Source: Aspergillus flavus (Eukaryota; Ascomycota; Eurotiomycetes; Eurotiales; Aspergillaceae). From it: DNA of 64,000 nucleotides. The translations under genes and the position numbers were made by a program. The notes under the pieces were generated by a model. That model had not been told where the DNA came from and ran no database searches. It saw only the letters and a list, made by a program, of their open reading frames with translations. Where the stretch lies: the NCBI RefSeq assembly GCF_009017415.1, contig NC_092408.1:2666001-2730000 (forward strand), given 5' to 3'. This document shows positions 1,927 through 64,000 of this stretch, in pieces. How positions within the stretch are numbered: the first letter of the stretch is position 1; every line of letters starts with the position of its first letter.

Positions 1927-3470
1927 TATCTTGGGTGTGTCTGCTATCCTAGATCCGCAATCCGATGTGTGTTGTCTTGCAACGGCTACATATCGGCTTC
2001 TTTCAGACCTGAGTATTTAAATGCATAAGGATTATAAATCAAGAATACTAGCATGCGTAACGCTCCCCGGATTTAACGGCGAACCCTCTACCAAATTCCG
2101 CTTTATGTCCTTGTTCGGTCTCTAAGAATGAAAAATGGCCCCAAATAGCTAGTTCCATATGCACTAAGCTGAAGATTATTGGTCCAGACCTAGGATGTAT
2201 ATTTGCCTACATCGGACTTTAGAGTCACAAATTACTTCCGTCACTATCTGGGTATAAAATGATCGTGCAGTTGAAACTCTAGGTTCGAGGCCTTCTGGAT
2301 GAAATAGGGCTAAGTAAATCACGAGTGCTCCAGTCTTGTAAGCTTTCTCCTGTGCTTTGTACTCCCAAAGTACGGCTCGTCAACCTATCCTGACGGCCTT
2401 CAGGCGGCAGTTACCGTCTGCCCGAGATCCATGGGCCACTTTCTTTAATACCTCTCCCATGTGAATAAAAGAGAAATCTAACATTTTGAATGCATCGCTA
2501 TCTAAGATCTATGGAAAGACGAGTCGGTCTGACGAAACGCCAGGACATCCCGTGGAAATAGAACAGCTGACCGGCCAATGCGCGCCAGTCAGACTCACTC
2601 TCCCCAGACCCGACTCTCTAATATCTAATGTCTTCTATTAGAAGCATGGAAAAACCGAAACAGTTCCTGGACTGGGGTAAAGTCGAAGGAGATTATGACT
2701 GCTAGGCTGCAGGACGCGCAGACTTGAATCCCCGGGCCCATGATGGAAAGATTATCCACTTCCTTGGTGGTCAGCCATCAAAAGACATTTTGGCTGCGAC
2801 TCATCCCTCAGCCATGGCGATCTCTTAAGATCTAAGTGTACTTCGTGTACTGGAAAAATAGGATCGTTCTCCAAGTCCTCCAGCAGCCTCTCAAGATGGG
2901 ATAGCCGACGAAGGCGTCTTTGATAACACCGATAACTGTAACTTTGGTGAGATCGATGACAGCGATATATTGGATGAAATGACTGCAGGGTCCATATGTG
3001 CTGAGTGCAGTGGAAGGCGGACGACAACACATCTAGTGATGACGGTACGAGTCGAAAAATTGCTATCGGTAGCGATGATGATGACGATACTTCCAACTCG
3101 GTGATAAGGGCTAAATATAACGGACAGCGATGGAGCGCGACGAATGCTCGGATTGATCCACACGGGGATCGAGTTCAACACTCTCCACTCTAGCTTCGAT
3201 GGATGTCGGTCGGCAGAGTACTTGCTTCTGCTTTTCTTGCTTTTTATTGTTCGCTTTTGGTTTACCGGCATAACGTGGACATTGCTATCATATGCCGAGA
3301 TTTCACAGGCGTCTTTGTCCCATGTTGCTTTCCTCAACATCACTTAGCTTATGCTCGAATTTATTTCTTAATAAAGAGACATCTCCATGAGTCATTGAAA
3401 GGTGTTCTATCGCTGGTTCTGGATGAACTGTATTTGATTTGACAAGTGACAGGTAGAGCCTTACTCGAAA
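1927..3470. other. long intergenic region with a weak coding-like relic
   Basis: The stretch holds the promoter of the minus-strand SDR (1927 upward) and the 3' side of TyrRS. Between about 2840 and 3190 both strands have open frames. The plus strand encodes an acidic Asp/Ser-rich stretch that switches frame near 3000, which may be a decayed coding fragment, but no family is recognisable. Nothing else is supportable. Confidence 0.4.
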
Positions 3471-4854
3471 CTACTTCTCCGTGGAATCAGCACCATTCGT
3501 TTGGGCCTCCTGCGCCTTGGCACCCGGGTAACGAGTGCCCTTGCTCTTGACCTTCTTCTGCTTCTTTTCCACAACGGGAGGCGGGTAGGCCTTCAAAGTA
3601 ATCTCCTGCCATTCTGGAGAGGCTTGGTAGGCGGCTTGGATAGGAGCCATAAGGTCGATAAGACCCTGCGCTACAGCAGGCTTAAGCAGTTGTGGCGTTA
3701 ACTATAAAGTATTTAGGTTAGTTTCCTCTGAGGCACAGAATGACACGGAAAGACAAACGTACGATATCGTTCTTATAATCTTCCTCAAGTTGCTTGATAT
3801 CGGTGTAGATCAATGGCTCCTCATCCCTTCGCTCGACTCGGAACTCCTTCTTACCCTTGAGGTCGGCAGCGGGTAGGAGAACATATTCCACGAGTGCGAT
3901 GACTCCGTTATCTTCGACGACCTTAGGGGCTGCCTCCGCTTTGCGAATCTTCTTCGAGATGCTCTCGGCTGGGTCTAGCAGATCAATCTTGCTATCTGTT
4001 TCAGAATTAGCATCAATAGCGACCTTTAGCGAACTTTGGTGGGCTAAAATGAGAATTACCTTCAACACTAGAACTCATCTTGGCGCCCTTCAATCCGCTG
4101 ATCATAGGGTTGATCAGATGTGCGCGCTAGATAAGGATTCGTTAGCTTTAAGAGATTTTCGCCAATAGTAATGGCAGACATACCTTCCGGTAACCGATCT
4201 TAGGCAGCCATTCCGTGGCAGCGGTAAAGAGCTTTCTCTGGTCCATACCTCCCAGCTGAACATCAACCTTCAGGTGCTCTTCGTCAAGGACCTGAAGCAC
4301 CGGGTACAGAAGACCACTCAAAGGAGCATTCTCGGTCTGTTTGACAACCTCTGCGCCAGCCTTTTTAGCATCTCCCTCAGAGATCAAACTAGACAAGCGA
4401 TACACATCCATGACATATTCGGGGCTTTTTTGGTAGGAGCTGCCAAGAACAAACTCAAGCTTATCGGTAGGCACGCCGACAGACTCGAGAATTGCCGTAA
4501 TGATCTTTCTATAGTACTGAGCACGGTTCTCCACAAGCTCAAGCGGGGCCTTCAGGTTGTCAAGGAAGGCATGGACATCGGCGAGCAGGACGACGACGTC
4601 GCATTGTGCACGGAGCAATTGGGCGATTTTGAGCGCAGCGAGGAAATATCCGACATGTGGTCTTCCTGTCGTTGCCGTACCTAATACGAAACACAGGTTA
4701 GCTAGTGCATGACTGTGTATGTAACGTGACTCTTACCCCAATAGATTCTAGGATTTCTCTTTTCGATTAAGATGTTTTCGATAATCTCGGGGTTCAAGAT
4801 CTCGGCGAGATTCTCGCTGATGAGATTAAACCGTGCTTGTGCTTCCGAGTCCAT
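3471..4854 (-). CDS. TYS1: tyrosyl-tRNA synthetase, cytosolic
   Basis: This gene charges tRNA-Tyr with tyrosine for cytosolic translation. Five exons on the minus strand, 4854-4737, 4680-4184, 4126-4060, 3995-3763 and 3701-3471, give 381 residues. Four introns of 56-61 bases all have GT...AG ends. The class I signature is PHVGYF around residues 47-52, the form of the HIGH motif seen in eukaryotic TyrRS. The second class I motif KMSSS is at 221-225. The catalytic core contains [11 protein letters not shown] and GGMDQRK, and the C-terminus is lysine-rich with no EMAP-II appendage. Length and motifs match fungal cytosolic enzymes rather than mitochondrial or bacterial types. The start [10 protein letters not shown] is the first ATG in the exon-1 frame. 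It is a single-copy housekeeping gene and a good anchor for synteny. Confidence 0.97.
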
Positions 4855-5298
4855 CGCGACGAGTCAAAGCCAGAAATGAGACTTGTAGGGAGATGCGCAG
4901 GAAAAGGGAAAGGCGGCGCTGGCGCTGGTGGGATGGTTTTCTTTAGGTGGGGGAAAACCGTCGGATAAACATTTGTTCCGTTGGCATTTTGAGTCAGACA
5001 GATTTAATAGGCGGTCAGGGGTGGCAGATAGCCATCTTGGTTAAAGAGTCGTCTACGATTGTCAGACAAGTCTACTAGATTCAAGGTTTAACACATTGGA
5101 TTCCGACAAGAGTTTAACTGAGAGCACTTTTTGTAGGCAAAGTTTAATATGCGCCAAAATGCCAACCCATGAGAGATGTGGGCAGAACTACGACTCAATA
5201 CAAACGGGGTACCATATCGTAAAGCTGTCTGTCATAGGCTCGACAACACAGTATATAGCCACAGTCATCGAGTTAAGTGAAACCATTCCAAACAGAGT
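4855..5298. other. intergenic, TyrRS promoter and 3' end of membrane protein gene
   Basis: The region upstream of TyrRS lacks coding signals. A short purine-rich stretch lies just before the start (about 4880-4930). Nothing else is identifiable. Confidence 0.4.
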
Positions 5299-6336
5299 TT
5301 AAAATGGTGACCGCGGCCGCTCCAAATCCCTCGGGCTATTATTATTCACGGGACTCCCGAGATCCCGATAAGGTGCAATCGGTGACGCCTCCATGGTTGT
5401 CATGGTGTTCCGATCACCAATATGGAACTTCTTTGAAGCGAGAATGTCCGTTCTACGCAGTATAAGCTTCTCGCACTGTACAAGAAGAGATAAGAAAACT
5501 TACACCATAACCAGCGGAAACAAGCATTCCATCGTATACGCAAACCGATCAAATTGACCTGCCACCGTCGTGGCTGTTTGCGATGTGACTTGCAACGAAT
5601 ATGTGACTGCGCGGGTGATACCGATCACGCAGAGGCTAGCGACGCGCATCTCAGTGGTGCGGAGCATATGCCGGAAGACTAGTCTCGTGCAGGAAAGTTT
5701 AGGAGAGGCACGGTATGCCTTGTGCAGGAGGCGAATGAGAAAGAAAGAGCTGCACGTTTCGACCAATGCGATAGAAGCGAAGTAGCCGACGTGCAGGTAG
5801 TCGATTCGGTGTTGTAATGGGCCGGTGGAATGCGAGGACACGCCTTCTTGAGTGATTTCGAGGACTCTGCTGGCGAGTATAGTCATTCGGATGGCGCCAA
5901 TGGCAACCATGAAAAACCAGAAAAGGGAAAGGAAGATTATCCGGGTCGAGTCACGGAGAGTGTGTAGTAGTATTTGGTAACTGTAAAATGAAAGGCCGGC
6001 TTCTTGGACCTAATGTCTGGTTAGTAAGGCATCCGGTTGCCAGAGTTGACCGAGTGATGGGCTCACCAGCCAGAGAATATCAGCAATGGCACTGGCGGCT
6101 GCTCGGTCCCCCGTAGGATATGATGTGTAGAAGGAAAAGTAACAGAGTCCGTTGGCCACGGCACCAGCTGCGGAAACGATGATGGGGATGAAGCTCAAGG
6201 GACTGGGCCGTGTGATGAGCATGGCCCAGATACTCAGGAGTGTTGTGAACAGACCAATGCTGCTTAGAATCGACCAGCTTAACTCATAATAGCTGGCGGC
6301 CTCTGCAGAGGTACCAGATGAGGGGTGGGTATCCAT
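5299..6336 (-). CDS. fungal seven-transmembrane protein of unknown function
   Basis: Exon 1 is 6336-6067 (90 codons). After a 57-base intron, exon 2 runs from 6009 to about 5506. Seven hydrophobic helices are visible in order: SWSILSSIGLF, SFIPIIVSAAG, ADILWLVQEAG, IIFLSLFWFF, YFASIALVETC, CVIGITRAVTY and the segment ending ECLFPLVM. The frame reaches a stop at 5500, but a strong donor (GTAAGT) overlaps it. Splicing to an acceptor at 5476-5477 restores a frame through a polar tail containing SPIAPYRDLGSP and ending ERPRSPF, stop at 5299. That intron would be only 30-36 bases, below the usual fungal minimum, so the C-terminus is uncertain (259 or about 316 residues). The topology suggests a plasma-membrane or vacuolar protein; no family is assigned. 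Confidence 0.7.
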
Positions 6337-42842: not shown

Positions 42843-44427
42843 CTAATGTCTCAAGGCGACCTTTGTTCCATTTCTCGAGCACAATGTCAAGGTCAAGTTC
42901 TCCTCCCACGGACCTGGATCCCGACTTTCAAGAACGGAGAATTGTTGTGCAAGACGCACGGTGACGTAGCCGGCCTCGGTAAGTGCATACTGTTGGCCGA
43001 CGCAGATACGGGGCCCGCCGTTAAAGGGCAGGTACTCCCATGACGGTCGGAGATCGGCCCAGCGCTCCGGGCGGTACTCGTTCGCATCGGGGCCGTAGAA
43101 GTCTTCGCGACGGTGCATCGAGTATACGCTGTAAGCAACGATGGAGCCCTTGGGGACGAAAACAGGCGCGTTGCCAGCGGGGCCGCCGCCGACGGGAAGG
43201 ACGGTATCGTTGATGGCGAAGCGGGCGTTGGAGGGGACGACGGGGTGGAGACGCAGGGCTGATTGGTTAGCCGATGGAAGAACAAAAAAGGGGTCTTATT
43301 CCTGGAAACTCACATTCGTTCATGCAGTACTTGAGATAGGTGAGATTGCGCAACTGCTCATAAGTCGGGGCGCGACCTTCCAACGAGGCGACCTCCTCGC
43401 GCAGCTTGTTCCAGATGCGGGGGTTCTTCGCCAGCATGAAAAACATGTTACTCAACAGCGATGCCGTAGTATCCCGACCAGCGAGAAGCACATTCATCAG
43501 CTCATCCCGAATCCGCTTAGGATCACCGGTTTGTTGCGCCAACCCTTGCAGAAACAGGTACCTCTGTTTCTTGTCGTCATCTGTCGCGGCCTTCTCCTCG
43601 TCGTAATTGGCACGGTATTTCAACGCCTTCTCGACAAACTGTTCGACCAACTTGTGGCACACCTGATTGCAGTGTTCCGCCTTGGTATCTCGGAAAAAGT
43701 GTCTCAGCGGGCCCAAACGTGTATTTTTTGCAATCGCGTCCTGCGCATAATTGAACGAACTGGCGAAGTCGTTGTCGTCCAGTTTCACACCCGAAAGGCG
43801 TTTCTTGAGGGACTGGACGCTGTGTCCGAACAGGAATTCCGTAGCCGAATCAATTGTGTAACAGAAGAACAGGTCCTGCAGGTCAACCGTGGTGCCGTCG
43901 GTCGGGATCAAGGCCAGTAAATCGGCCATGAGCTCCTCGAAGATGTCCAAATGCGCAACCTGGTCCTTGACGAAGTTCGGACGGATCATGGCGCGCGACT
44001 GCGCCCAGTGGTCACCATCCGTCGTGAAAATGCCATGGCCGAGCAAGGGGCCGAAAGCGTCGATGCGATTGCCGAGTCCGTAGTCTTTGAATTTGAGGGA
44101 CAAGATCGTTTTGATGTTCTGGGGCTCGCACGTGACGATGATGGGGGTCCGCAGACGTCTGGCACGAAAGGTGTTGCCAAACTCACGGAAGCGAGACCGC
44201 GAGCGCTCGAGGAGGACGTGTTTTTTGGCGGCATCGAGGTTGTTGTGAATGCTGTCGAGGCCCAGAAATGGGTCTTTGTTGACTTGACAATGTACCGGTT
44301 GACAGTTGTTCGCGCGGGCTATGCGGTATTGGATATATTTCCGCTGGAGAGCGGTCACAGTATAAACAAGGAAAACCACAGCGCCTGCAAGCAGGGCTAC
44401 TGGGTAGTGAGAAGAATTCATGATCAT
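42843..44427 (-). CDS. cytochrome P450, CYP52-like (alkane/fatty-acid hydroxylase type)
   Basis: Two minus-strand exons (44427-43314 and 43258-42843, 55-base intron) give 509 residues. An N-terminal membrane anchor ([18 protein letters not shown]) tethers it to the ER. P450 signatures are the I-helix AGRDTT (316-321), the ExxR pair Glu371/Arg374 spanning the splice site (ESLR), PERW at about 435-438, and the heme loop [10 protein letters not shown] with the axial Cys457. The motifs [20 protein letters not shown] and [16 protein letters not shown] are typical of the CYP52 clan, which hydroxylates terminal carbons of alkanes and fatty acids with NADPH-P450 reductase. The exact subfamily (CYP52, CYP539, CYP584 and so on) cannot be assigned without comparison. 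It faces the PLP enzyme gene in tandem orientation. Confidence 0.93.
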
Positions 44428-45079
44428 GGTGGTTGAGTCGCCCGCGAGATCAAGGAGGTGGGTGTGGACCGGGGTGGTGGGGAAGCTTTTATATACCTTC
44501 GATGTAAGTAGACAAAGAGTTCAGGGCAAGGACCCGCACCAGCAAGTGTAACCTTCGCAGGAGCATTTGCCGAATTTCAACCATAGAACTCTTCAGCTTT
44601 TAAGTAGGCGGACCCGCAAACAAAGAGGGCCGAGGCTAATGATGTAGCAGATTCAAAGTTCTCTCGCAAGGTTTACCAAATGGGAATAGTCTCACGTTAT
44701 GCCGAGTCCTATGAATAATCATTAATCACAGAAACCCGGACTGAAAGGTATTCGTTCATGTCTTAGTTATATGATATCACTGTAGTGTCACCCCGAGGAT
44801 TATCTCAGGGCTATCCTATAGTACTCAGTTCTACTGGATAAAATAGTAGAAATAGAGATATAATATTCTAGGATAGTAAAGGTTGAATAATCATCGTCAT
44901 CATCATCATAATTTCTGCATGTGAGTCCGACTAGTACTCGATCTGTCAGAATCTAAGCAGTTTCGAGTTAGAGGGGGAGGTTTAAGCCTTAACCTAAGGT
45001 AGGAAGTGCACCGCCTCTCGGTCTGACCGTCATGGCGAACGCCACACCTCTCAAGCATTACCCAATCTAGTCTAGTGGA
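44428..45079. other. intergenic, P450 promoter
   Basis: It contains a short (CAT)n/(ATC)n run at about 44891-44910 and AT-rich sequence. No gene is seen. Confidence 0.4.
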
Positions 45080-46643
45080 TTATGCGAGGTATTCTCCCTT
45101 CCTGACCCTCTCAACCAAACCCCTCAACACTCCTCCTAACCACTCAAAGTCCTTTGGCTCCAAATATACTTGAGCACACAGACGCGTCCATAACCAATCA
45201 CCATGTTGGAAAACTGGAACGAAGGTTCCAAACTCATCGTTCAAAGTTACCTGCAGGAAATGCACCACCTTGCTGACATCCTCAGCAGCCACCGGAGGAT
45301 AAGGTGACGACAACTTTCCATCCTCCTGTCCACCAACAGGAATCGGTAATCGGACTGTGGACATTCCGCACCGACGGAGCTTGCTCTTATCCCCGGCCCG
45401 AAGATCGGGCTCCTGCAGGACGTCCGTGCCGAGTGCAGCTGCGACAATGTCACCGCCTTGGATGGCAAGCTCCTCAAGGTATTTAAAGATAGCGTCATGT
45501 CCGCCGCACACGTCAGTTCGGAAGCGGACGGCATCAGGGACAGTCAGATAAGCCGCATCATCGCTCGTAGCCACAAATTGGAAGAGCTCTTCAAAGGCAG
45601 ACCGTTGGCTCCCAACCGGCGTCAGAATATTCGGCTTGTCCGCCGTGGATGACGTGGGATCCGCAATAAAGCCCCAGGATGTTGGAAGCGTCGTCCGGAT
45701 CAGATGTTGATGGCGCACAGGAACGTAGAGAGCTGCACAACCACGGGGGACATAGAGCCATCTGTACAACATCGTTAGTTTCATTGCGATCTATTCCCAG
45801 GATTCGTTGAGCCGTACTTGTGCAAATTACTCGTGAAAAAGTCGGGCTGCAATTCCTTTAGGTCCAATGGAATGTGCCCGATTCCATGGGCACCATCAAT
45901 AACACTAAAGATTCCTTCATCCTTGCAGACTCTGGTCAACTCCTCAAAAGGAAACCTCATACCGGGAAGACTAGCCACAGTATCGAAGACCGCCACTTTC
46001 ACGTTTAATCCTTCGGATCGAGCTTGTTCCACAACATCTTTGAACATCTGCACGAGCGTCTCGTGGGTAATAGGGCAAGTATAGTCAACTTTTCTTGCCT
46101 GAAGCGGGGTGGTTTCGGTCAACGAAGTGATTGTCTTCTCGATTGCCCCGTATATGGTCGCGAAGTATATAATCACATCTCCCTCCTTATAGCTGAGATT
46201 TCGGAGGATAGTGTTCACTCCGGTTGTTGCATTCTTCACGAACACCAGTTCTTGTACAGGGACGTTGAGAATTTTGGCAGTTGCCAGACGCGACTCATCA
46301 AGCAATTCATTATGGGTGTAGCGAATGAAAGCATCTGGCCTCGCTTCGATTTCGTCCTGGTACTTACGGAGCGCATGTTTTACCTGGGCTGGATATGTAC
46401 CGAAGGATCCTGGTGTATGGTGTAAGCATTTATATAGGAATTGACAAATAAAAAAGAACCGAAAATGACAAAATGACAATATATACTTCCATAGTGCCCA
46501 GGCACTCAACTATATATATAACAAGGTCATAGTATGATATTGATGCGCTTACCATGGTTGAGATTTTTATATTTGGGATCGAACAGGAAATGCTTCAACA
46601 TGGGTGCTCCAAATGGAGTTCGTTCGTATGAAGGAGATGCCAT
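45080..46643 (-). CDS. class V PLP-dependent enzyme (isopenicillin N epimerase-like)
   Basis: Three minus-strand exons (46643-46553, 46409-45818, 45761-45080) give 454 residues. It is a class V aminotransferase/desulfurase-fold protein. NLNHGSFGTYP (28-37) is the N-terminal signature of the isopenicillin-N-epimerase-like group, NATTGVNTIL (90-99) binds cofactor phosphate, IDGAHGIGHIPLDL carries Asp202 and His205 that contact PLP, and the Schiff-base Lys228 lies in SNLHKW. There is no cysteine-desulfurase active-site Cys loop that I can place. The related fungal enzymes include epimerases, desulfhydrases and hercynylcysteine lyases (EgtE-like), so the reaction is open. It is divergent from an MFS transporter across about 380 bases, suggesting co-regulation. 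Intron 1 is long (143 bases). Confidence 0.9.
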
Positions 46644-47023: not shown

Positions 47024-48517
47024 ATGGAATTAGAAACACGCCATTCTGCGAGAGAGGAAGACCCCACCGGGTCCAGTCTCTTAACGGACGAACGGCACAA
47101 TGAACTTCAACTACCCCCTGTGGATGGTGGCAAAGATGCGTGGTTGTTCTTGGCAGCAGGCTTCGTGATGGAGGCTCTTGTTTGGGGTAAGTTTCTCAAC
47201 TCTTTCCACTCGGGTTATCACGTTCTCACGGCTCGTTTCAGGTTTCGCTTTTGCATACGGCATTTTCCAGGATTTTTACAGCACACATGAGCCTTTCAAG
47301 AGCTCAGGTAACACGGCCGTGATTGGAACATGCATGATGGTGCGCTATTGATTCTCGCTGAAAGACTGTCGAGGTTGTATAGCCTAACTCTATCTTAGGG
47401 TGTAAACTACATGATCTCTCCTTTGACTTTCGCCCTACTACAGGGATTCCCCGTTCTTAAGCGGTGGTGCTCTCCTGCAGGGCTTCTCATTATGTGTCTG
47501 GCTCTCGTTCTGAGCTCTTTCGCGTCGAATACTACTCACCTAATTTTAACCCAGGGCATTGCCTACGGGATCGGGGGAAACCTTGCTTACTCACCCATGA
47601 TTATCTTCATGAATGAATGGTTTGTGCACAAAAGAGGTCTTGCATTTGGAACCATGTGGGTAAGCGCTCCTTAGATACCCTCAACTTGCCTATCCTCGTT
47701 ATGACGTTAGCTAATCCACGTATAGGCCGGAACTGGTGTCTCTGGTGTGGTGCTTCCCCTGGTGCTTCAATGGCTCCTGAATGCTTACGGCCACAAAACT
47801 ACCCTTCGAATCTGGGCTGTGACTCTGTTTTTATTGGCTGCTCCGCTACTCTATTATGTGAAGCCTCGCTTGCCCATCTCGCGTGCGTCCAGCGTCCGAG
47901 CGTTTGACTTGAGTTTCCTCTGGTCGCATACTTTCCTCATTTTCCAAATGGGTAACATCGTTGAGGCCCTAGGATATTTCTTGCCGACGATTTACCTACC
48001 TACCATCGCACGCACTCTGGGTGCCAGTAGTATCTTGGCGTCTCTGACAGTCATCTTATGCAACCTTGCATCGGTCTTTGGATGCATCGCCATGGGTCAT
48101 CTGGTTGATCGGTACCACGCGACTACTTGTATCCTAGTGTCCACTATCGGTAGTACCCTTGCTGTGTTTTTCCTCTGGGGATTTTCCGTGTCGTTGGCGC
48201 CCCTTTACATGTTCTGTGTTGTCTATGGCCTTTTTGCTGGGTCCTTCACCTCAACCTGGCCGGCCATCATGAACGAGGTGGTGAAGAAGAGCCAACTAGC
48301 GGATCCCTCAATTGTCTTTGGTTTCTTAGCAACTGGCAGAGGAATCGGAAACATTGTCAGCGGACCGTTGAGTGACGCCCTGATCAAGGGCTCATGGAGT
48401 TATGACCCTTCAGCTTTTGCCTATGGCACCACTTACGGCACCCTCATTATCTTTACGGGAATAACTGCGCTGTTTGGTGGATTAAGCGTAGTGGGAAGAC
48501 CCTTTAAACTGATCTAA
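47024..48517 (+). CDS. MFS transporter, monocarboxylate-porter (MCT) type
   Basis: Four exons (47024-47186, 47242-47339, 47399-47659, 47726-48517) give 437 residues. The order of features fits fungal MCT/MCH-type transporters. An acidic cytosolic N-terminus is followed by helix 1 (DAWLFLAAGFVMEALVWGFA), FAYGIFQDFY, GIAYGIGGNLAYSP, the conserved MNEWFVHKRGLAFG loop, AGTGVSGVVLPLVL, a central loop, then WSHTFLIFQMGNIVEALGYF, GCIAMGHLVDRYHAT, FFLWGFSVSLAPLYMFC and FGFLATGRGIGNIVSGPLSD. About twelve helices sit in the plasma membrane. Members move small carboxylates or efflux metabolites. The exact cargo is unknown; its divergent partner is a PLP enzyme. A short exon 2 is bounded by canonical sites. 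Confidence 0.9.
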
Positions 48518-48948: not shown

Positions 48949-49598
48949 TCAAGCCTTACCCCCACTGGCCACGCTTAGCACGGTCTTCCATTCGATCTCA
49001 TCAGGTGTATCTGCGTGGATGGATAATTTGACATCAAGCGCGCTCCGCAGCTGCTCTTTGGTGCTCGCGTAAAGCATGCACAGCTATATCCTCTGCTCAG
49101 ACTTGGCCTAAATATGTAAATAAATGAAGGGAAGGTGAACCCACTTTCAGAGGTGTGCTAGCAGGCACCCAACTTATAAACACTGTCTTGCAGCGCTTAC
49201 CATCGTCTCCAAGGTCATACTCAACATCATAAACCGCATAACGTGGGGCTGGGTTGCCACGGCTATCCACCGTGGAGCATAGTTTGTGACGGAAGGCCTC
49301 GAAATCCTGTTCTGCAGATGAATCTTCTACTACAACAGCGGTTTGGTCGTCTGAGATCCGGTAAATCACGAATGTTGGCTTTTTCGCCCCTCTTCCGGAA
49401 CGGACTTGCTTGTAGGTGGTGATGCATTCATCCGCTATGGAAACGCTGTTAATAGCTCAGTTAGTAAGGAGCCGGGAATGTGTAATCTACTAATAAGGGG
49501 TGGTATATATAGCAACATACCCCGATGGCATCTACAAGAGTCAAGACGGACCTGGGTAAGCGAAAGTCTTCAGGGACGAGGACGATACATACCGACAT
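48949..49598 (-). CDS. cofilin / ADF (probable accessory paralogue)
   Basis: Four minus-strand exons (49598-49593, 49531-49521, 49445-49145, 49083-48949) give 150 residues, all junctions in frame. The first exon is only ATG plus one codon and the second only 11 bases, so ORF scanning misses the true start. The single ADF-homology domain is complete: MSMPSGVSIADECITTYKQ at the N-terminus with the regulatory Ser region, RISDDQTAVVVED, APRYAVYDVEYDLGDDGKR, VFISWVPASTPLK, the actin-binding long helix MLYASTKEQLRSALDVK, and EWKTVLSV. Cofilin severs and depolymerises ADP-actin filaments. From memory of the family it is well conserved but not identical to the usual Aspergillus cofilin. It shares a 540-base promoter with the divergent actin gene. 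Confidence 0.93.
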
Positions 49599-50138
49599 AT
49601 TGATCGCTAGAAACTGAAATAGGTCAAAGACTGATAAAGTGCTTGTCTGGCAATCACTGAATCCGATAAGTGACTCTCACTTTATATGATGGTTCTGGTT
49701 AGGCTGCTTTATTCCATAGAAAAATGAATGCCTAAGGAAGGCTGCGCTGATTTGCTTGGCGGATACCTGCGGCCGCGCAATCCGGGATGCCGAGCAGATA
49801 TAACGACCATGAACCCTAACTCATCCTCATTGCGACGCGCAATCAATGTTACGAAGGGTCTGTTGCCTGGAGATGTTATTGCGTATTCACATTCATCTAC
49901 GTCGTGAATTCATGATGCTATCCTGAGTATTTGGGCAGCCTAGACTAAACCATTTAGGCATTTACGTTATTTTATCTATAAGTACGTTGTAGCTATCGCC
50001 ATATTTGCGAGGAAGTTCGCATACCGTGGCTACCTCTGATCTCATCATTTGGTCTATCGTTCTTATAGTTCAGTGTCGACAGACTCTATCTGTATTCGAA
50101 GCTCCCTGATTCGGTAGGACGATCACATCAAATCCATC
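49599..50138. promoter_or_regulatory. bidirectional promoter of the cofilin/actin pair
   Basis: The 540-base interval between the divergent ATGs of cofilin and actin is the only space for both promoters. It holds AT-rich sequence and pyrimidine stretches. No open frame with a domain is present, and no specific factor site was identified with confidence. Confidence 0.6.
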
Positions 50139-51706
50139 ATGGACGGTAATAAACCATAATTTCTTTCTCTTGGCCTAGGGCATACTACATACGTACTTTT
50201 GTACGTCTATATCACTCACAGAATGCTAATGTGACTCATGAGCTTACAGACGAAACTGCTGCCATTGTTATTGATAATGGGTATGATGGTCACATCCGAA
50301 AGCTGATCGTATATGCTAATTCAATCCATTCAGTTCCGGAATGTGCAAAGCTGGCTTTGCTGGCGATGATGCTCCCCGCGCTGTTTTTCGTGAGTCACTT
50401 ATTTCCTCTCTCATGGATTCTAGTACATGTAAAGAGCTGACAAAATTTCGGACAGCTTCCCTTATTGGACGTCCGCGTCACCATGGGTAATCCTTTCCTT
50501 TTTTCTTTTCCCAAACGAGCACAGCAATCGAAGCCCAACTAGCATGATAGAAATTATCCCAGATCGTCTACCACTTCGGGTTTGATCAAGCTGCTAAAGT
50601 TTGCCATAGGATCATAATTGGCATGGGCCAAAAGGACTCCTACGTCGGAGACGAAGCACAGTCTAAACGTGGTGTCCTTTCACTCCACTACCCGATTGAG
50701 CACGGGATCGTTAACAACTGGGATGATATGGAGAAAATCTGGCATCACACGTATTTTAACGAGCTCCGCGTGGCATCTGAAGAACACCCCGTTCTGCTGA
50801 CGGAGGCGCCCATTAACCCGAAATCTAATCGGGAAAAGATGACTCAGATCATGTTTGAAACTTTCAATGTGCCAGCCTTCTATGTCTCTATCCAAGCTGT
50901 GTTGTCTTTGTACGCCTCTGGCCGTACTACTGGTATCGTTCTTGATTCCGGCGATGGAGTCACACACGTGGTTCCAATCTACGAAGGTTTCTCTATGCCA
51001 CACGCTATCGCTCGGATGGACCTGGCGGGCCGTGACTTGACAGAGTACTTAGTGCGAATCTTAGCAGAGCGCGGCCATAGCTTCACCACATCTGCCGAGC
51101 ACGAGATAGTGCGCGACATCAAAGAGAGACTCTGTTATGTGGCGCTTGATTTCGAACAGGAGCTCGAAACAGCCGCTAAGAGTTCCAGTATCGAGAAGTC
51201 CTACGAGCTCCCTGACGGACAAGTGATTACAATTGGAAATGAGCGCTTCCGGGCACCCGAAGCTTTGTTTCAGCCGAGCTTGCTTGGCATCGAACAAGGT
51301 GGCATTCACGAGACTACGTTCAACTCGATTCAGAAATGTGATGTCGACGTTCGCAAGGACTTGTATGGTAATATCGTCATGGTATGTGTCTCCAGCCTTC
51401 TCCCCTCCCATCTTTGCTTCTGCTTTCTGGAATGGGATGAGTAGTACGCGAAACTTACTGTCCTTTGCCATCCAGTCTGGCGGCAGTACTCTCTATCCAG
51501 GCATTGCAGACCGACTGCATAAAGAGCTTGTAAACCTATCTCCTTCGTCGATGAAAATCAAGACCATTGCTCCACCGGAACGGAAGTACTCGGTTTGGAT
51601 CGGTGGCTCGATTCTTGCCTCGCTCTCTACATTCCAGCAAATGTGGATCTCGAAACAGGAGTATGATGAGAGTGGCCCCTCTATCGTGCATCGGAAGTGT
51701 TTCTAG
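50139..51706 (+). CDS. conventional actin, divergent paralogue
   Basis: Six exons (50139-50145, 50250-50280, 50334-50389, 50456-50486, 50610-51381, 51476-51706) give exactly 375 residues, the normal actin length. Intron positions (after codon 2, after Gly13, after Phe31, after His41, after Met299) agree with those I know for Aspergillus actin, so the copy arose by DNA duplication, not retroposition. Nucleotide-site motifs are intact: [50 protein letters not shown], and [17 protein letters not shown]. His73, the D-loop and the C-terminal Lys-Cys-Phe are kept. Differences from typical fungal actin recalled from memory are spread through the protein, including the swapped Tyr90-Phe91, Ser98, Ser170-Met171 and several lysine/arginine changes. 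Housekeeping actin is expected elsewhere. It is followed by a Zn2Cys6 regulator. Confidence 0.95.
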
Positions 51707-52236
51707 ATAGTCATGTGGTGGTCACGGTGGCAGGGGAAATTTGCGGGAACCGAGTCTGATATTAGTAGCAGTAGCGTGAAATAGGTCAATGTCATATATT
51801 TATTCATACTCTGTAAGCATTGGAAATTCGTGATATATAAAAGCAGCAGAACAGACAAGAACATGCGATATCTTGGACAAACTACTGGGGTTGCATGTCG
51901 TAGACACGGAGTCCGTCGCAGTCTTGGCAACGTGATTTTCGGTCTCAAACACTAGGTCTGTTACAGAGACAGTCTAAAACAGGAAAAGAAACAAACAAAT
52001 GAATGATCTCCACAACATAGAGCTTAGAAACTGGGCCCCATACTAGTAGCCATACTATATTGAAATGCGGATGCCCTGGATCTTCCAACCAATCGACGAC
52101 GCGGATACTAATGACAAGCCGGAAGCCGCGGGCCCAGGCATCCGAGGGGAACCGGATGCTTCTTCAACTTCTCCTTCTCCTCCATTTTGCACATTGTCTC
52201 CATCTTCCGGGATAAACCCTTCCAAAAAGTGCACCG
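51707..52236. other. intergenic, 3' of actin and promoter of Zn2Cys6 gene
   Basis: Contains the 3' flank of actin and the upstream region of the regulator. The open frame at 52065-52274 is a shadow, overlapping the regulator's start in another frame. No other gene. Confidence 0.45.
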
Positions 52237-54686
52237 ATGACTGGGCCAGAGAGAAGAGAAACGATCCAAGCTAGACAGCACCGGCTTTCCGTGATCCCTC
52301 GTGCAGTATGATCTATGGACCAGGAAAATAGTCCTAAGTATGCTAGCTAACGGATTTACAGTGCGAGGGGTGCAAGATACGCAAGGTACCGACCTCCCAG
52401 TAGAGCCGGAGACCACGAAGCTAAAGAGAAGGTATTGAGGTTCGCTGTGATCGCTGTGTCCCTTGTTCGAACTGCCGGACGTCCGGCATTACCTGCGAAC
52501 AGGCCAGCCCGAAACCTAGGTCGGAGACCCGGTCTAGATCGGAGCGAGATTTGTAAGCTTTTGAAAGGCAGTATGGAGCTAAGAACTAATTGTGTGTCAG
52601 GCAGCGACAAATCAAAAGTCTAGAAGAGCGACTTGTTTCGCTGGAACAGGAGTTGAAAACTCAGCGTAGTATATCGGAGCATCGCAGAGATGATACACCG
52701 GATGAAGTCTCGGCTGGCAGTGAGAAAGTTGTCCCGCAACCGACCTGCATTGCTCCTGTGTATGAAGGTATCTCTTCGTTTACCGGCCAATCTATCCTCG
52801 CAAGCGATGTAGCTCAGAAGACAGCCAATTCTGAAGGCGCCGGGGAACAATCGGATCTCAAGACTTCGTTAGTTCATCTGAAGAAATTGCTCCAGACCCC
52901 AACAAGATCCTCTTTCGGAACAGGATATCGAATGTCTCGTGTTCCTGCGGCACGGTCTTTGCCCACGCTGGACCATTTGTTACCCCTCGACCTAATTATT
53001 GCTATTCTACAAGAAATAAAGAGTAAGTAACTAGCATGAGAGATAAAAGGGCCATTTTTTTTTTCGCTTGATATATGGACTCGGATTGATATTCATAGTT
53101 AATCGTCCTATATTCCTTTGCTCATACACGATAAACGATCACACCTTGGTCGAGCGACTTTGCCAGAGGGTTTATTTCCCAACAGAGCCAATTTCAACGG
53201 GTCACCTAGCCAGTATGCACGGAATACTTCTTAGTCTCCTGAAAGAGTTTACGATTTTGGGAAGCCCCTTGTGTCAAAAGTTTGATCTCAAGGCGCATAT
53301 GTCCACGTGTGAGCAAAACTTCAATACATTGGTCGAGTCGTACGATGTTTTGGCAATCCCTAGTTTTGAAAGTATATTCGCACTGATCATGGGGGTAAGT
53401 TGTCTAATAAGTAGAAAAGTATTGCTAACTGACTTGTTGGCCCCTTCTGCCACTGCGGCCAGTTTATAAAAGCGCAGGATGAAGCAAAGCCATTGCTGTG
53501 TTCCACCTTCATCTCTGCAGCTGCTAGTCATTGCCAGATGCTCGGGTACCATCGCGAGATAACCTATCGCAGTGATAACACAGGCAATTCGAAAAACATG
53601 CGGCGATTATTTTGGACTACATACGTATTTGAAAAGCATATGTCTTTATACTTTGGGCGAGCTTCAAGTATGCAGGATTTCGATATTGATGCACAGTACC
53701 CGGCCATCACCAGAGACCCTGCGGTTAGGCCGTGGGATGAGTCCTTTGTCATGGGTATTCGACTAGCCAAGCTTCAAGGCGAAATATATGACAAACTATA
53801 TTCCGCAGAGGCCGCCAAGAGCTCTCATCCGGAACGGATGCGACGAGTACACGGATTAGCACTTGACATCCAACAGTGGTATGCCGAATTCAAGGAGGTG
53901 AGCAAGCGCATCATACCCGACCACGAATGTGTCTTAGTGACAGTAATTCCTCCATGTGTTAGATCGACGCAAGTAAAGTAAACAACCATCACATATTCAA
54001 AATAAGCCGAGATAGCTGGGACATACTATACTATTCGACTTTCACGTCGCTATTGCGCGCACCGATCACCTCAGGTTCTGCATGTGGCGAGCTCAGCTCA
54101 CAGTGCTTTCGGGTTGCGCGCCTTAGCTTACAGAGCCACTTACGCTGTTTTGGAAATTTCCAGACCTCTGGTTTCCACACTAAAGCTGATTACGCTAATT
54201 GGTATGTTCCCTACGACGTCCCCTAAGGTGGGTAATATAATTGACATACGCAGGGTTCTGCTGTTCTCTTCCTTCACACCCTTCATCGTTATATTTTTGC
54301 ACGCTATCGCAGCGACCAGCTCGGACGATATCCAACTTCTTAATGAAGTAGTTGAAAGTCTCCAGCACATCCGATATGTATCACCTAGCTCAGAGCGTCT
54401 GTATCAAATCTGTTCTACTTTCTTGCAAATTGCCAGGGAGTTGGTTAAAACAAGACAGTCATGTGTGGGAGCCTACAACCAACTAGAGGACAGCCTACAG
54501 TTTGCGACTGATGCAGGTCCGATGTCGATCTTTGAGCCCGATTGCCTACAAAGTCTCTTCGGAACGGATACATCAGAATACGCTCCTTTCTTAGCGGATC
54601 ACGATATGTGTGCAATCTTTGACTCTTGGGCAACTGGGGTGCCCGCTGGGGTGAATTTATTTGGAGGTGATGTCGGGGGTATATAG
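52237..54686 (+). CDS. Zn2Cys6 fungal-specific transcription factor
   Basis: Eight exons (52237-52290, 52362-52385, 52440-52552, 52601-53022, 53099-53394, 53463-53897, 53963-54201, 54254-54686) give 671 residues. The binuclear zinc cluster is Cys19, Cys22, Cys29, Cys35, Cys38 and Cys45 (spacing C-x2-C-x6-C-x5-C-x2-C-x6-C), split by an intron after Lys26. A dimerisation coiled coil follows (LQRQIKSLEERLVSLEQEL). The fungal_trans middle region contains ERLCQRVYFPTEP, LGYHREITY and RRLFWTTYVFEKHMSLYFG. It is a nuclear activator or repressor binding CGG-type half sites. Introns are 48-76 bases; the first donor (GTGATC) is weak but the frame and branch site (GCTAAC) support it. Its position directly after the actin gene suggests it may regulate the actin/cofilin locus (inference). 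Confidence 0.9.
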
Positions 54687-56753
54687 TGACCTAGTTGGTA
54701 TTAGCATTACTTAATCTACTGAGCTCAAGATGGCAGATGACCAACACTAGGTACTGACAGCTATGGGTTGCACAGAAACCATCACAATGCAGGGAGTGCT
54801 CAATAAGAAATATGGTCTTAGTAAACATATAAATTGCACGGCATCAACTCAATATCTCACCCAGCCGACTGCGAATACATTTCCCTGGCCTGAAAATTCT
54901 GGTCCTTAGCTTCTAGCCACTTGACACATCATCAGACCTCTCTAAGCTCCACTCACTACACAAAATGAAGAATTGGACTTTGTCACTTTCACTATCTTGG
55001 TTCTATACGCCTCTACAATAGAGGATTCCGAGACGGCCCAGTTCGTTCAGATTAAACAGGCTGCCGAGACACCATGTCCAGCAAAGTCAGACGAATGCAA
55101 GCCAGTTGGAAGTGTATGTTTGTACCTCGATACATTTATTACATGCTTCAATGAACCGAGAGCAATTAACCGATACTTATTAGGTTCCCATGAGTGTGGA
55201 TGTCGTTTGGAAGGGCGAAAAGCGAGAATCCCCGACATGCGATATATGGTATGGAATGTCTGATACAAGGGTTTGCCGACATTCTCGAAGGGATTTGCAA
55301 TACCGGTACCGTATTTTTGCTGGCACGTCCAGCCGTGGAAGCAGTAACCTGTGCAATGAAGGTATTACTGACCAGATTGGGAGTATCAGGTGCTTTTCTG
55401 CGCCCTGAAGGGTGTCTGGATTAGTACATTTTGTCCGTTCTCAATAAAGGAACTTGGAAGAATTGGTCACGCCAAGTAAGGGAACTACCGTTAACTCCCT
55501 TGCGGGGGATTACCCTGATTAATTCAGGCTCAAGGGACTGAATGTGGAGATATACGTATTGCCTGCTCGCCAATCGAAAACACCGTAAACTTAAAGGCCC
55601 ACATACCGCTGTCGATGTGGGTTTCCGACCCTCCTTCGCATAAAGCGAAATCGCAACTGTTGAACATGCTAGCGGGGGACGTACACCGTTACCTTTCTTC
55701 AGAAAAGCTATTTGATCGTAAGAATCCCAAGAATTGCATTCACATACGAAGTACACGCCTTCTGAAAGTCATTGCTATATTCCGTGTAGATTTGATGTAT
55801 CTGGTCTACGTAACGCCGGGAGGTGGTTCGCAGTAATGCGACAATCCTTATTTACTTTAGAAGACGACAACCAATCATGACATGTACATATTCTACACAA
55901 GCCGACTAGTCAATACTATGATTCACTTATTTCGTGACGATCGGATAGTCGACCCACGTTTAATATACAAAACTGTTTGTCTAGAGCCAAACGGTAGCAT
56001 GGTATTGCTGTGGGGGAACGGGTGAGAGAGAGACAAAGCAATGAAAAAGGAAACAAATGGGGATAGTGGTAGAAACGAGTAATGATTTTCGTTAGTTTCA
56101 GACACTCAGAAGAACCATTCTGCAAACAGACAAAAGATATGGGAACATCGCGACGAACACGACATCTTGTGCTGCATGTAATATGTTAGACTTCGGCTAA
56201 GAGGAAGGCGATGCTTGTTAGCACTCACGCCCCCACTCCGTCCGCCCTTGTTGCTCCGCTCATCCTTCAGTCCGGCAATGCCGCAATAGATGTTTCTCGG
56301 GACATGTTATGCCGCAGCTTGAATATCTTAGGAATGCCACAGGCTTCGTTGGTGGAATTAAGCATATAGTCTTGCATTCAATATATTGGCAATGCCCGTT
56401 AGGGGTATTATGGCCCCGTAATATGGCGTAATGTAGTTTCTCAAAGCTTGCCCTAAGCTCGTTCTTCATAAGATCATCGTTCAGTAAGTCTATCGTTACG
56501 CACGACATTGGATCATGGCCGCCAGTTAAACAACATTCGATTCTGGCCCGGGGTATTACCGAAAAGGCTAAGAGAAGACAGCCCGGCGGCACGAATCCTT
56601 CACTATGTTCTCCTCTTTACTAACTTGGACGAGACCTAGTTTGCATGAGAGCAGCCAGACTCGCGTGCACAGCATATAAATACACGCATATGCCCCCCAC
56701 CGTGGTAATCTTTCCATTCAACGTGTGAGTACGAGCAAATGCACGTTGTCAGT
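54687..56753. other. 2 kb intergenic with a possible decayed secreted-protein gene
   Basis: From an ATG at 54965 a short hydrophobic leader (MKNWTLSLSLSW) is followed, one frame away, by a Cys-containing stretch (ETPCPAKSDECKPVGS) with a possible donor at about 55111 and downstream Cys-bearing frames to about 55430. A frame slip of one base separates leader and body, so if it is a gene it is broken or mis-sequenced. The rest of the interval has nothing supportable; the last 300 bases are the rhamnogalacturonase promoter. Confidence 0.35.
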
Positions 56754-61724: not shown

Positions 61725-63926
61725 CTAGTCGACCAAGTTGCTGGCAGGGTTCTGTAGAGATTGAAATTGCAGCACTATTATGTCCATTTTGCCCAAAAGA
61801 AATATGAAACTATGAGATGACAGCGACCTACAGAATGAACTACACACTCGCATTGGTCCTGTTACCCGGTTGAGAGACCTCCTGCGATATCCGAATATCA
61901 GACAGAGCGCAGGTGACGTTTCCTCTGCTTTGGAGGATCGGCACTGTCTATGGTCAGTAACACAGATGATCTGGTCGAGGAAATGAACACTATACCCATT
62001 GAAATGCAAATCGACTAACAAATCCCCCCTAGAGTTGAAGATGGGATTCTTCATCAGATAGCTGCCCTTTCCGGGGAGGAAGAGTCGTTGCTGATCAGCC
62101 AAGCCATATAGGAGGTAGTTCCCAACCCCTGAGAGTGCGCTTTCCATGCCACCCTGGACCCTGTTCTTGAAAGTTTCTGCGATCTGTTGTGGTGGTGGGC
62201 TCCATGACATGTTTCCAGATGAGTTTTGGGAGACGTTCACCTTGTCAGACCCTTGGACGATTTTGAATTGCAGCCCACCGTCTTCAACCGATGCCATGGC
62301 GATGGACATGGACCAGCTGATTCCAAATGTCATCTCCGTCCTGTTGACTCATTGTCAATAATTAACTTAAATGTTTCTTTATAGTTGAATTGTGACGAAT
62401 CTAACACCCACCATGTACTGAACTTCCGCGTAGAATGATCTGCTCGGAAAACAAAGGTAGTGCTGCCACTCAAGTCTACTACCTGTCCACCAGGACGGAA
62501 CCCGAGACTAGCGGTGGTGCTTTTCGCTGTCAGAGACATGTGTTAATCAATTTCCAATCATCATTGAGAGTAGGGGAGATGTACTGTCTTCCTGCAATTT
62601 CATGGTGTCACGGCTATCATTAGGATTCGCGACTTGAATTTCGCTATGACGCGATGGGCCAATCAGCCACCAAGTGTTTGGCTTCCACCATTGAGGCGAA
62701 AACTGGTACTGGCTATCTTCAGCAGCGTCGTCTCCGGTGTGGTACTCGATTCTGGACCGGAAAGGATGGTCCGGGTCATTGCTATCATCCCAATAACACA
62801 TGGGTGTGTCAGGATAAGGAACCATGTCAATGACTAATTTTCGCATCAGGCCTTGCATCCAAGGCCAAAACAAATCACAGTTCATGACGAAGGTACCCTC
62901 GCGATCACCATTATCAACCCAAGGACCAGTGTACTCAATAGCCCCACCGGCCGGGGGAGAGTCGAAGTTGCACATCATCAGATACGAGAGAGCGTTGAAC
63001 TCTATGTTATCCTTTGGGGCCTGAGAACCATCGGAGCCTTTCCAGGGATAGCAGTAGTAGTCAATGCTAGTCGGAGGAAACGTGGGCGCGTATTCATTCA
63101 CTGCCAGAGATGCTGGATGAGTACTGCGAAGTGGGCAGGGATACAGCAAGAACCTTACGCTCGTCATCTTCCTGGCGTTCTGCAGAATAGCCCAGAATGT
63201 TTTTGCCTTTTTCCTTCATTACATTTAGCCAGCGCTGGATAAAACTGTCAAATGTGGCACGGGCCTCAGGAGTCAGATTCCTGAATGCATCATTCTTGTC
63301 TCCAAATTCACTAAGGTCGGGCTCCCATTTTGTTGTCGCTGTTCAGCAAGGAGGTTAGTCCAGTTCTAGGAGAATACCAAGTGGGGTTCACACTCACACG
63401 ATGCATCAATAAACAACGCAGCCAGGGTGAAGTTGGAATTAGGCAGTCCCGCACGTTCTTTGAACTCTTGGTACTCCTTCGAATCTTTGGTGACCTCCTT
63501 TCGAGCTGTCTACTGGGTGAGCGATGACATTCAATAGAGAAGCTGCAGGTAGCCCCTACCAATCGTTACCGAGAAAGCAAATATCCAGTTCTTGATATCC
63601 CAATTGATTTTGCTGTCATCATCAGGGTCATCAGTCAGGTAAAGAAGCACCTCACCCTCAGTCATGCGCAGCTGAAAGTATAACATGGGATCTTCCGTAG
63701 TAACCTGTAAGCTGACGGTGGGCCGTCCGACCTTGAATTTGAGGAAGTCTCCTCCCCTAACAGTATAAGAAAAATACTTCAAGGGGTTATCTTCATCGCC
63801 CTCCCGCTGGGCCGCGTCCCACATTGCACTGAAACCATTGTTGATTATCTTCTGCGACAGGAAGATAGCCTGGGCATAGGGATTGGGGTTCGTCTTATCA
63901 ATGAAATTGTCGCCTGTAGTCGCCAT
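61725..63926 (-). CDS. unassigned multi-exon protein, about 631 aa
   Basis: Six minus-strand exons (63926-63570, 63509-63398, 63338-63159, 63100-62585, 62526-62412, 62340-61725) join without a stop to give 631 residues; five introns of 58-71 bases. It starts MATTGDNFIDKTNPNPYAQ with no signal peptide. Notable stretches are YFSYTVRGGDFLKFKVGRP, MTEGEVLLYLTDDPDDD, the helical FQRWLNVMKEKGKNILGY-like segment, WPWMQGLMRKLVIDMVPYP, SPQWWKPNTWWLIGPS, RPGGQVVDLSGSTTFVF and FGISWSMSIAMASVEDG. A beta-rich, Trp/Asp-rich, probably cytosolic protein is suggested. I recognise no family or catalytic motif. The exon 5/6 junction and the last about 45 residues (after FLDQII) are less certain and could contain a further intron. 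The gene is too long and too consistently coding to be chance. Confidence 0.72.
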
Positions 63927-64000
63927 GGGGAAAGGTATGTTTCTCCAGTGTCAATGGAGCTGTGTTTGTTTTTGATTAGATGGCGGGAGTGGATTTATCT
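63927..64000. other. promoter start of the unassigned gene, window end
   Basis: Only 74 bases upstream of the last gene's ATG are visible, so its promoter is mostly outside the window. Confidence 0.3.

Follow-up and report, generated by a model that had tools for sequence, protein, structure and literature searches.

Head-to-head accessory actin and cofilin genes beside a regulator gene in Aspergillus flavus, a possible conditional actin-turnover set

The stretch of DNA studied here (the window, 64,000 nucleotides) is C5:2666001-2730000 of Aspergillus flavus, whose genome comprises 37.7 Mb on eight contigs, and it carries an accessory actin gene and an accessory cofilin gene in divergent orientation. 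In the first-pass annotation, a 150-aa cofilin (-) and a 375-aa actin (+) had been described head to head at 48949-51706, 540 bp apart, and the spliced models reproduced this geometry exactly. In window positions, the pair consists of:

48949-49598, minus strand: accessory cofilin gene, spliced model of 4 exons without internal stop, 150 aa
49599-50138, no strand: divergent intergenic region, 540 bp between the two start codons
50139-51706, plus strand: accessory actin gene, spliced model of 6 exons, 375 aa

The exons of the cofilin gene lie at 49593-49598, 49521-49531, 49145-49445 and 48949-49083 (-). Its product has one actin-depolymerising factor (ADF) domain (Pfam Cofilin_ADF PF00241, E 2.8e-29, in a single stretch), has the length of ~130-150 aa expected of an ADF/cofilin and matches solved cofilins, the closest of which is yeast cofilin (1cfy, E 2.1e-21, residues 5-148). 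The exons of the actin gene lie at 50139-50145, 50250-50280, 50334-50389, 50456-50486, 50610-51381 and 51476-51706 (+), with GT..AG borders in 5/5 introns. The actin domain (Pfam PF00022, E 4e-148) covers residues 3-375, and the protein could be aligned end to end with yeast actin (1yag, residues 1-375), as is expected of a conventional actin. In a motif scan the intergenic region showed CGG/CCG-type repeats at ~49760-49792. The 13-mer TGAAATAGGTCAA occurs exactly at 49615-49627, just 5' of the cofilin start, and at 51777-51789, between the actin gene and the regulator gene that follows it, with no further copy in the window when one mismatch is allowed; two matches were obtained in 1/100 shuffles, for a 13-mer picked because it was seen repeated. 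As a common promoter motif, the repeats and this 13-mer are only a weak lead.

Six-frame searches of the genome were carried out separately with the actin and the cofilin families. Apart from actin-related proteins and the window gene itself, a conventional actin was found at C5:2225266-2227052 (-), ~0.49 Mb from the window gene on the same contig, and a conventional cofilin at C8:1045216-1045954. The possibility that the window genes are the housekeeping copies was ruled out by these two genes, and the claim of the first-pass annotation that both are paralogues was borne out, since further actin and cofilin genes exist and both window genes are additional. The accompanying assumption of one actin and one cofilin per filamentous ascomycete did not hold: there are three cofilin genes in all in this genome, and diverged second actins are present in A. 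wentii and Diaporthe. The third cofilin (C1:1094.0-1094.4 kb, minus strand, 149 aa) is far removed from both others, with an end branch of 3.8 in the cofilin tree, and bears the RSKM motif of yeast cofilin. The top-scoring actin-family match, on C2, reads as a putative Arp4-like protein, and the other cofilin-family matches were taken for putative twinfilin, Abp1 and GMF-like genes.

The accessory and the housekeeping actin differ at 52/375 residues (identity 86.1% in protein, 74% in DNA), and the nonsynonymous divergence (dN) between them is 0.08, a value of dN alone as dS could not be estimated. Their exon lengths are the same (7/31/56/31/772/231) and all five intron positions are common. 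The two cofilins are 57% identical, with three introns in the accessory and four in the housekeeping gene. The G+C content at third codon positions (GC3) is lower in both window genes than in their housekeeping counterparts (0.549 against 0.667, 0.540 against 0.632). The housekeeping actin is 97-99% identical to 6/10 named ascomycete rows; identity is lower in the remaining four, at 91% for Beauveria, 90% for the yeast Yarrowia and 86% for two Diaporthe rows.

The analysis of substitutions set the window actin against its housekeeping counterpart, the A. wentii protein, six other rows of the A. flavus kind and 33 further actins (P0207-P0240 minus P0209); the rest of the relatives list, largely animal fusion proteins, was omitted. 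The A. flavus kind thus comprises seven actin rows from five species, two of them represented twice. Residue numbers in the cited papers were assumed to equal those of the 375-residue protein. None of the 52 substitutions affects the ATP-site residues, which we take to be D11, S14, K18, Q137, D154 and H161. Residues 130-169 and 330-375, which presumably hold much of the face for profilin, cofilin, WH2 proteins and cytochalasin, received 0/52 substitutions at 86 sites (P 4e-7, the stretches having been picked after the gaps were viewed). When rows with fewer than 30 or more than 60 differences were dropped, these stretches showed 0-4 changes in the window actin and the seven rows counted as accessory (A. 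wentii among them), 3 in either Diaporthe row and 4-8 in 23 other actins, which differ from the housekeeping actin at 33-60 residues. Because the ATP-site residues and both stretches are kept, the accessory actin should still polymerise and bind the common partners.

The substitutions R206H, M305L and M283Q each occur in 7/7 rows of the A. flavus kind and in 0/33 other actins, as does the replacement of S271 by Q or R; Y198H occurs in 7/7 and 2/33, respectively, and M305L is also present in A. wentii. Residues 187-206 are enriched for change (8/20, P 0.003, in a stretch picked after looking), but the hydrophobic loop 263-275 (3/13, P 0.26) and subdomain 4 as a whole (181-269; 16/89, P 0.13) are not. 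Y198 has been listed among the phalloidin contacts (PMC7360965), and R206 has been reported to touch S271 of the neighbouring monomer and to pair with D187 in latrunculin-bound actin (PMC3990709). With R206H and S271Q/R, both sides of this R206-S271 lateral contact are therefore altered. The accessory actin carries R68H, D187E and R206H and keeps Y69.

Orthologues of the accessory actin were found in A. flavus AF70 (98% identity), A. bombycis, A. pseudonomiae, A. alliaceus (two rows) and A. bertholletiae, and the window actin groups with the six full rows in a single clade (support 99/96). A second actin search, which mostly returned housekeeping actins, added the Diaporthe rows and the A. oryzae row P0243, with 100% identity to the 218-residue actin piece used as query. 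The AF70 protein (P0186) has the adjacent changes A220V and L221F, at sites invariant in the 33 other actins. For the accessory cofilin, orthologues with 83-99% identity were found in A. parasiticus and A. flavus (98-99%), A. pseudotamarii, A. bertholletiae and A. alliaceus, and these also form one clade with the window cofilin (99/90). All of these species are, we assume, members of section Flavi. Both A. oryzae cofilin models (P0007 and P0014, from two annotations) lack residues 88-115; the gene may be damaged in this domesticated species, or it may have been mispredicted twice.

The linkage of the two genes appears to extend beyond A. flavus. Actin P0198 and cofilin P0005 of A. alliaceus have the same listed contig size, 268789 bases, as do actin P0202 and cofilin P0004 of A. 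bertholletiae, at 167599 bases; these equal contig sizes, rather than gene order, indicate linkage in the two species. The first-pass annotation had asked whether the pair is syntenic in related genomes or unique to one strain. To the extent that contig sizes can tell, the genes are linked in these two species, and the notion of a linkage unique to one strain falls away. In A. pseudonomiae, model P0190 fuses the accessory actin to a PF04082 regulator, and its tail matches the window regulator at 52599-52766 (65%), 53281-53394 (95%), 53463-53852 (89%) and 55021-55113 (68%), so that the order of actin and regulator is kept there.

The cofilin tree comprised 79 rows, i.e., 76 of the 120 listed proteins, picked by hand, and the three cofilins of this genome; unnamed rows, the pair of shortened A. 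oryzae models and some further named rows were omitted. Housekeeping cofilins formed a single clade of 24 (96/99). The window cofilin and 53 others (the distant C1 cofilin aside) fell outside it with little resolution among them, and these span Aspergillus, Penicillium, Paecilomyces, Talaromyces, Fusarium, Ilyonectria, Diaporthe, Boeremia and others. The cofilins P0011, P0012, P0017 and P0018 are placed outside the housekeeping clade as well. In the actin tree (33 rows), the A. flavus kind lay apart from the 13 Pezizomycotina housekeeping rows (81/92), close to the diverged Diaporthe (88/47) and A. wentii actins, with support of only 45/11 for the three as one clade. The substitutions F90Y and A319N (7/7 rows of the A. 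flavus kind) and I64V (6/7) recur in Diaporthe, each being found in 2/33 other actins, which are the two Diaporthe rows; I64V, T66S, F90Y, L171M and M305L are common to the A. wentii diverged actin and the window actin. The residues common with Diaporthe hint at an old accessory actin, and horizontal transfer or convergence could also account for them. In the approximately unbiased (AU) test, a recent duplication inside Aspergillus was not rejected with A. wentii held in the group (p-AU 0.116) and was rejected without it (p-AU 0.018); a single clade of the A. flavus kind and A. wentii was not rejected (p-AU 0.374).

Second, diverged actins, which occur in Diaporthe, A. wentii and perhaps Beauveria (P0235, P0239, P0339, P0209 and P0218), have substitutions in common with the window kind, and linkage to a cofilin was not seen for any of them. 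The Beauveria neobassiana row P0218 (26 members), which groups among the housekeeping actins in the tree, differs from this genome's housekeeping actin at 34 residues and carries Y198H, V75I and V266L. In A. wentii, actin and cofilin each have a diverged copy.

Outward from the pair, MFS transporter, PLP enzyme and P450 genes follow on the cofilin side, and on the actin side the regulator precedes a pectate-lyase-fold gene (MFS, major facilitator superfamily; PLP, pyridoxal phosphate; limits approximate):

52315-54686, plus strand: Zn2Cys6 / PF04082 transcription factor, 3' of the actin gene and in the same direction (PF04082 E 1e-12 at 53433-53978)
47024-48517, plus strand: MFS transporter, neighbour and putative unit member (PF07690 E 1.6e-22 at 47726-48514)
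45080-46600, minus strand: PLP enzyme, Egt2-like C-S lyase / class V aminotransferase, putative unit member (PF00266 E 1.7e-19 at 45784-46509)
42850-44427, minus strand: cytochrome P450, 3' part by eye, putative unit member (PF00067 E 1.4e-34 at 43270-44520)

The CEGCKIRK Cys motif of the regulator, at 52362, was read by eye. The best PDB match of the PLP enzyme is Egt2 (5uts, E 1.3e-55), and the 45083-45790 piece of its gene gave no Pfam match. In the motif scan, the intergenic region shared no 10-mer with the MFS/PLP and P450 gene promoters.

Within 70 kb of the pair, no match was obtained for a ketoacyl synthase, a condensation domain, a terpene synthase (one Pfam class), UstYa or dimethylallyl tryptophan synthase (DMATS), with 83/87 condensation and 14/158 AMP-binding candidates scored. 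The nearest ketoacyl-synthase match, which is fatty acid synthase-like by reading, is 181 kb off, the nearest terpene-synthase (same Pfam class) and UstYa matches are >0.9 Mb off, and the nearest DMATS and nonribosomal peptide synthetase (NRPS) condensation domain are at C5:2791924 (74 kb) and C5:2797415 (80 kb). In these searches the pair was therefore not placed inside a biosynthetic cluster with a polyketide synthase (PKS), NRPS, terpene synthase, DMATS or UstYa-type ribosomal peptide (RiPP) core, and a classical metabolite cluster around it is not supported. The DMATS gene adjoins an NRPS gene at C5:2791924-2800453, ~75-80 kb downstream of the pair, and the two are probably a separate metabolite cluster. 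Large open frames without a Pfam match (five pieces tested) lie at 61725-63950 (-) of the window and at 3378-5860 (+) of L017.

Based on these results, we regard the pair as an accessory actin-turnover set common to a number of A. flavus-like Aspergillus species, and tentatively as a regulated one that may serve to tolerate actin toxins; from the earlier interpretation, the suggestion of an accessory pair made under special conditions would fit best. The pair would be low or silent in normal growth, and poisoning of the ordinary filaments would switch on both genes together, probably through the neighbouring Zn2Cys6 regulator. The variant actin would then form filaments poorly bound by the toxin, and the extra cofilin would keep them turning over. 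This reading is preferred because two diverged interacting parts lie head to head beside a regulator, as would be expected if they were needed together, and because the changed sites sit at toxin and neighbouring-strand contacts while the partner face stays. The mode of working would be like that of NAP1, the diverged actin of Chlamydomonas that is latrunculin-induced and latrunculin-resistant, with a depolymerising factor of its own in addition. Diverged actins have been reported or suggested as responses to actin toxins for NAP1, a sponge and a nudibranch (PMC12444908). As in the account of NAP1 given there, a second diverged actin stands alongside a conventional one; the window actin differs in having a cofilin gene linked to it and in keeping a tyrosine that contacts latrunculin and is altered in NAP1.

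Several points weigh against a role in toxin tolerance. That tyrosine (Y69 here, equated with Y71 of the review) is unchanged, so the NAP1-like change is absent; of the 16 phalloidin contacts 4 are altered, which does not exceed the chance expectation for 52/375 (P 0.17), and I34L, T77N and D187E do not occur in all seven rows of the A. flavus kind. Y198 is altered in Leishmania actin as well, where the change was read as loosening the filament or making it more dynamic (PMC9200798); Y198H may likewise serve filament dynamics and need not concern toxins. Residue 75 is I in the accessory and V in the housekeeping actin, and V75 of many ascomycete actins is reported to block phalloidin staining, which isoleucine restores in one species (PMC12444908); by analogy V75I would, if anything, restore phalloidin binding. 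Moreover, the housekeeping actin of A. fumigatus has been reported neither to bind phalloidin nor to be sensitive to jasplakinolide (PMC4640809), and a spare actin against such stabilisers would therefore be needless in Aspergillus. A toxin role, if any, would be limited to toxins other than phalloidin/jasplakinolide-type stabilisers. Lastly, the longest contigs of the diverged actin and cofilin of A. wentii differ (2796016 vs. 966603), the actin row standing for two contigs, so that contig sizes give no sign of linkage in that species. A more specific version of the toxin reading, which we consider rather unlikely, is a self-sorting second actin cytoskeleton: R206H and S271Q/R would make the actin prefer its own kind, a dedicated cofilin and a linked regulator switch would accompany it, and an old accessory family scattered over Pezizomycotina would have been kept for escape from actin toxins.

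The same facts could be accounted for about as well by an isoform pair for one structure or stage (sclerotia, conidiophores or sexual bodies), comparable to the tissue actins of animals and plants, with the regulator as a stage-specific activator and with Y198H and R206H/S271Q tuning filament dynamics. Such a pair, about as likely as a toxin-tolerant set, would fit the orthologues in several species, the preserved general constraints of actin and the GC3 values, which suit low or restricted expression, but the non-housekeeping cofilins are scattered over genera of differing development. The view that both genes are old paralogues under relaxed constraint, decaying and without a function that matters, could draw on the A. 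oryzae cofilin models without residues 88-115 in two annotations and on A220V and L221F of AF70 at otherwise invariant sites. However, frames and splice sites are intact in the window genes, dN between the actin copies is 0.08 (dN alone), the pattern of constraint is that of a working actin and orthologues are retained in several species, which makes decay quite improbable.

Self-resistance would be another possibility: the P450, the Egt2-like PLP enzyme, the MFS pump and the regulator would make and export an actin poison, against which the two variant proteins would guard the producer. Genes for actin and cofilin are essential, and each window gene is an extra, diverged copy of such a target, as in target-duplication self-resistance; the P450, PLP enzyme, MFS and Zn2Cys6 genes all flank the pair within ~12 kb. 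The likeness to the IMP dehydrogenase of mycophenolic acid producers lies in a duplicated essential target that neighbours P450, MFS and regulator genes, and the difference in the two interacting targets, instead of one, and in the core biosynthetic enzyme, which was not found within 70 kb among the candidates scored. A closer parallel has been described in A. uvarum, A. violaceofuscus and A. japonicus, in which a cofilin (ADF) gene lies in a putative PKS cluster together with P450 and two Zn2Cys6 genes, the cluster being reduced in A. aculeatus; the possibility that this cofilin confers resistance was raised by the authors (PMC10734572). As in the window, the extra Aspergillus cofilin is near P450 and Zn2Cys6 genes, and two additional ADF genes are likewise reported from those genomes. 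The locus as described there has a PKS and an HMG-CoA reductase with no mention of actin, whereas the window locus has an actin and no PKS near. On balance, self-resistance is considered unlikely here. The four cofilins P0011, P0012, P0017 and P0018 noted above are taken to come from kin of the PKS-cluster species.

In a survey of resistance genes, the whole words actin and cofilin are absent from the main text (PMC6517689). Among the titles and abstracts of open-licence papers that were listed, no description was found of a linked accessory actin-cofilin pair with a regulator or of a second Aspergillus actin. Diverged actins and extra cofilins are kinds already known, and it is the linked pair with a regulator that was not found described. 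As the housekeeping actin of filamentous ascomycetes hardly varies, a diverged actin linked to a diverged cofilin and retained in several Aspergillus species offers a natural experiment on how actin can change, as well as a test of whether two actins form separate filaments within one hypha. If the pair were a toxin-tolerant spare set, it would signal actin-directed chemical warfare around crop-associated moulds and give a handle for finding the compound. On the practical side, actin primers used for bar coding or as an expression reference might hit two loci in the A. flavus group.

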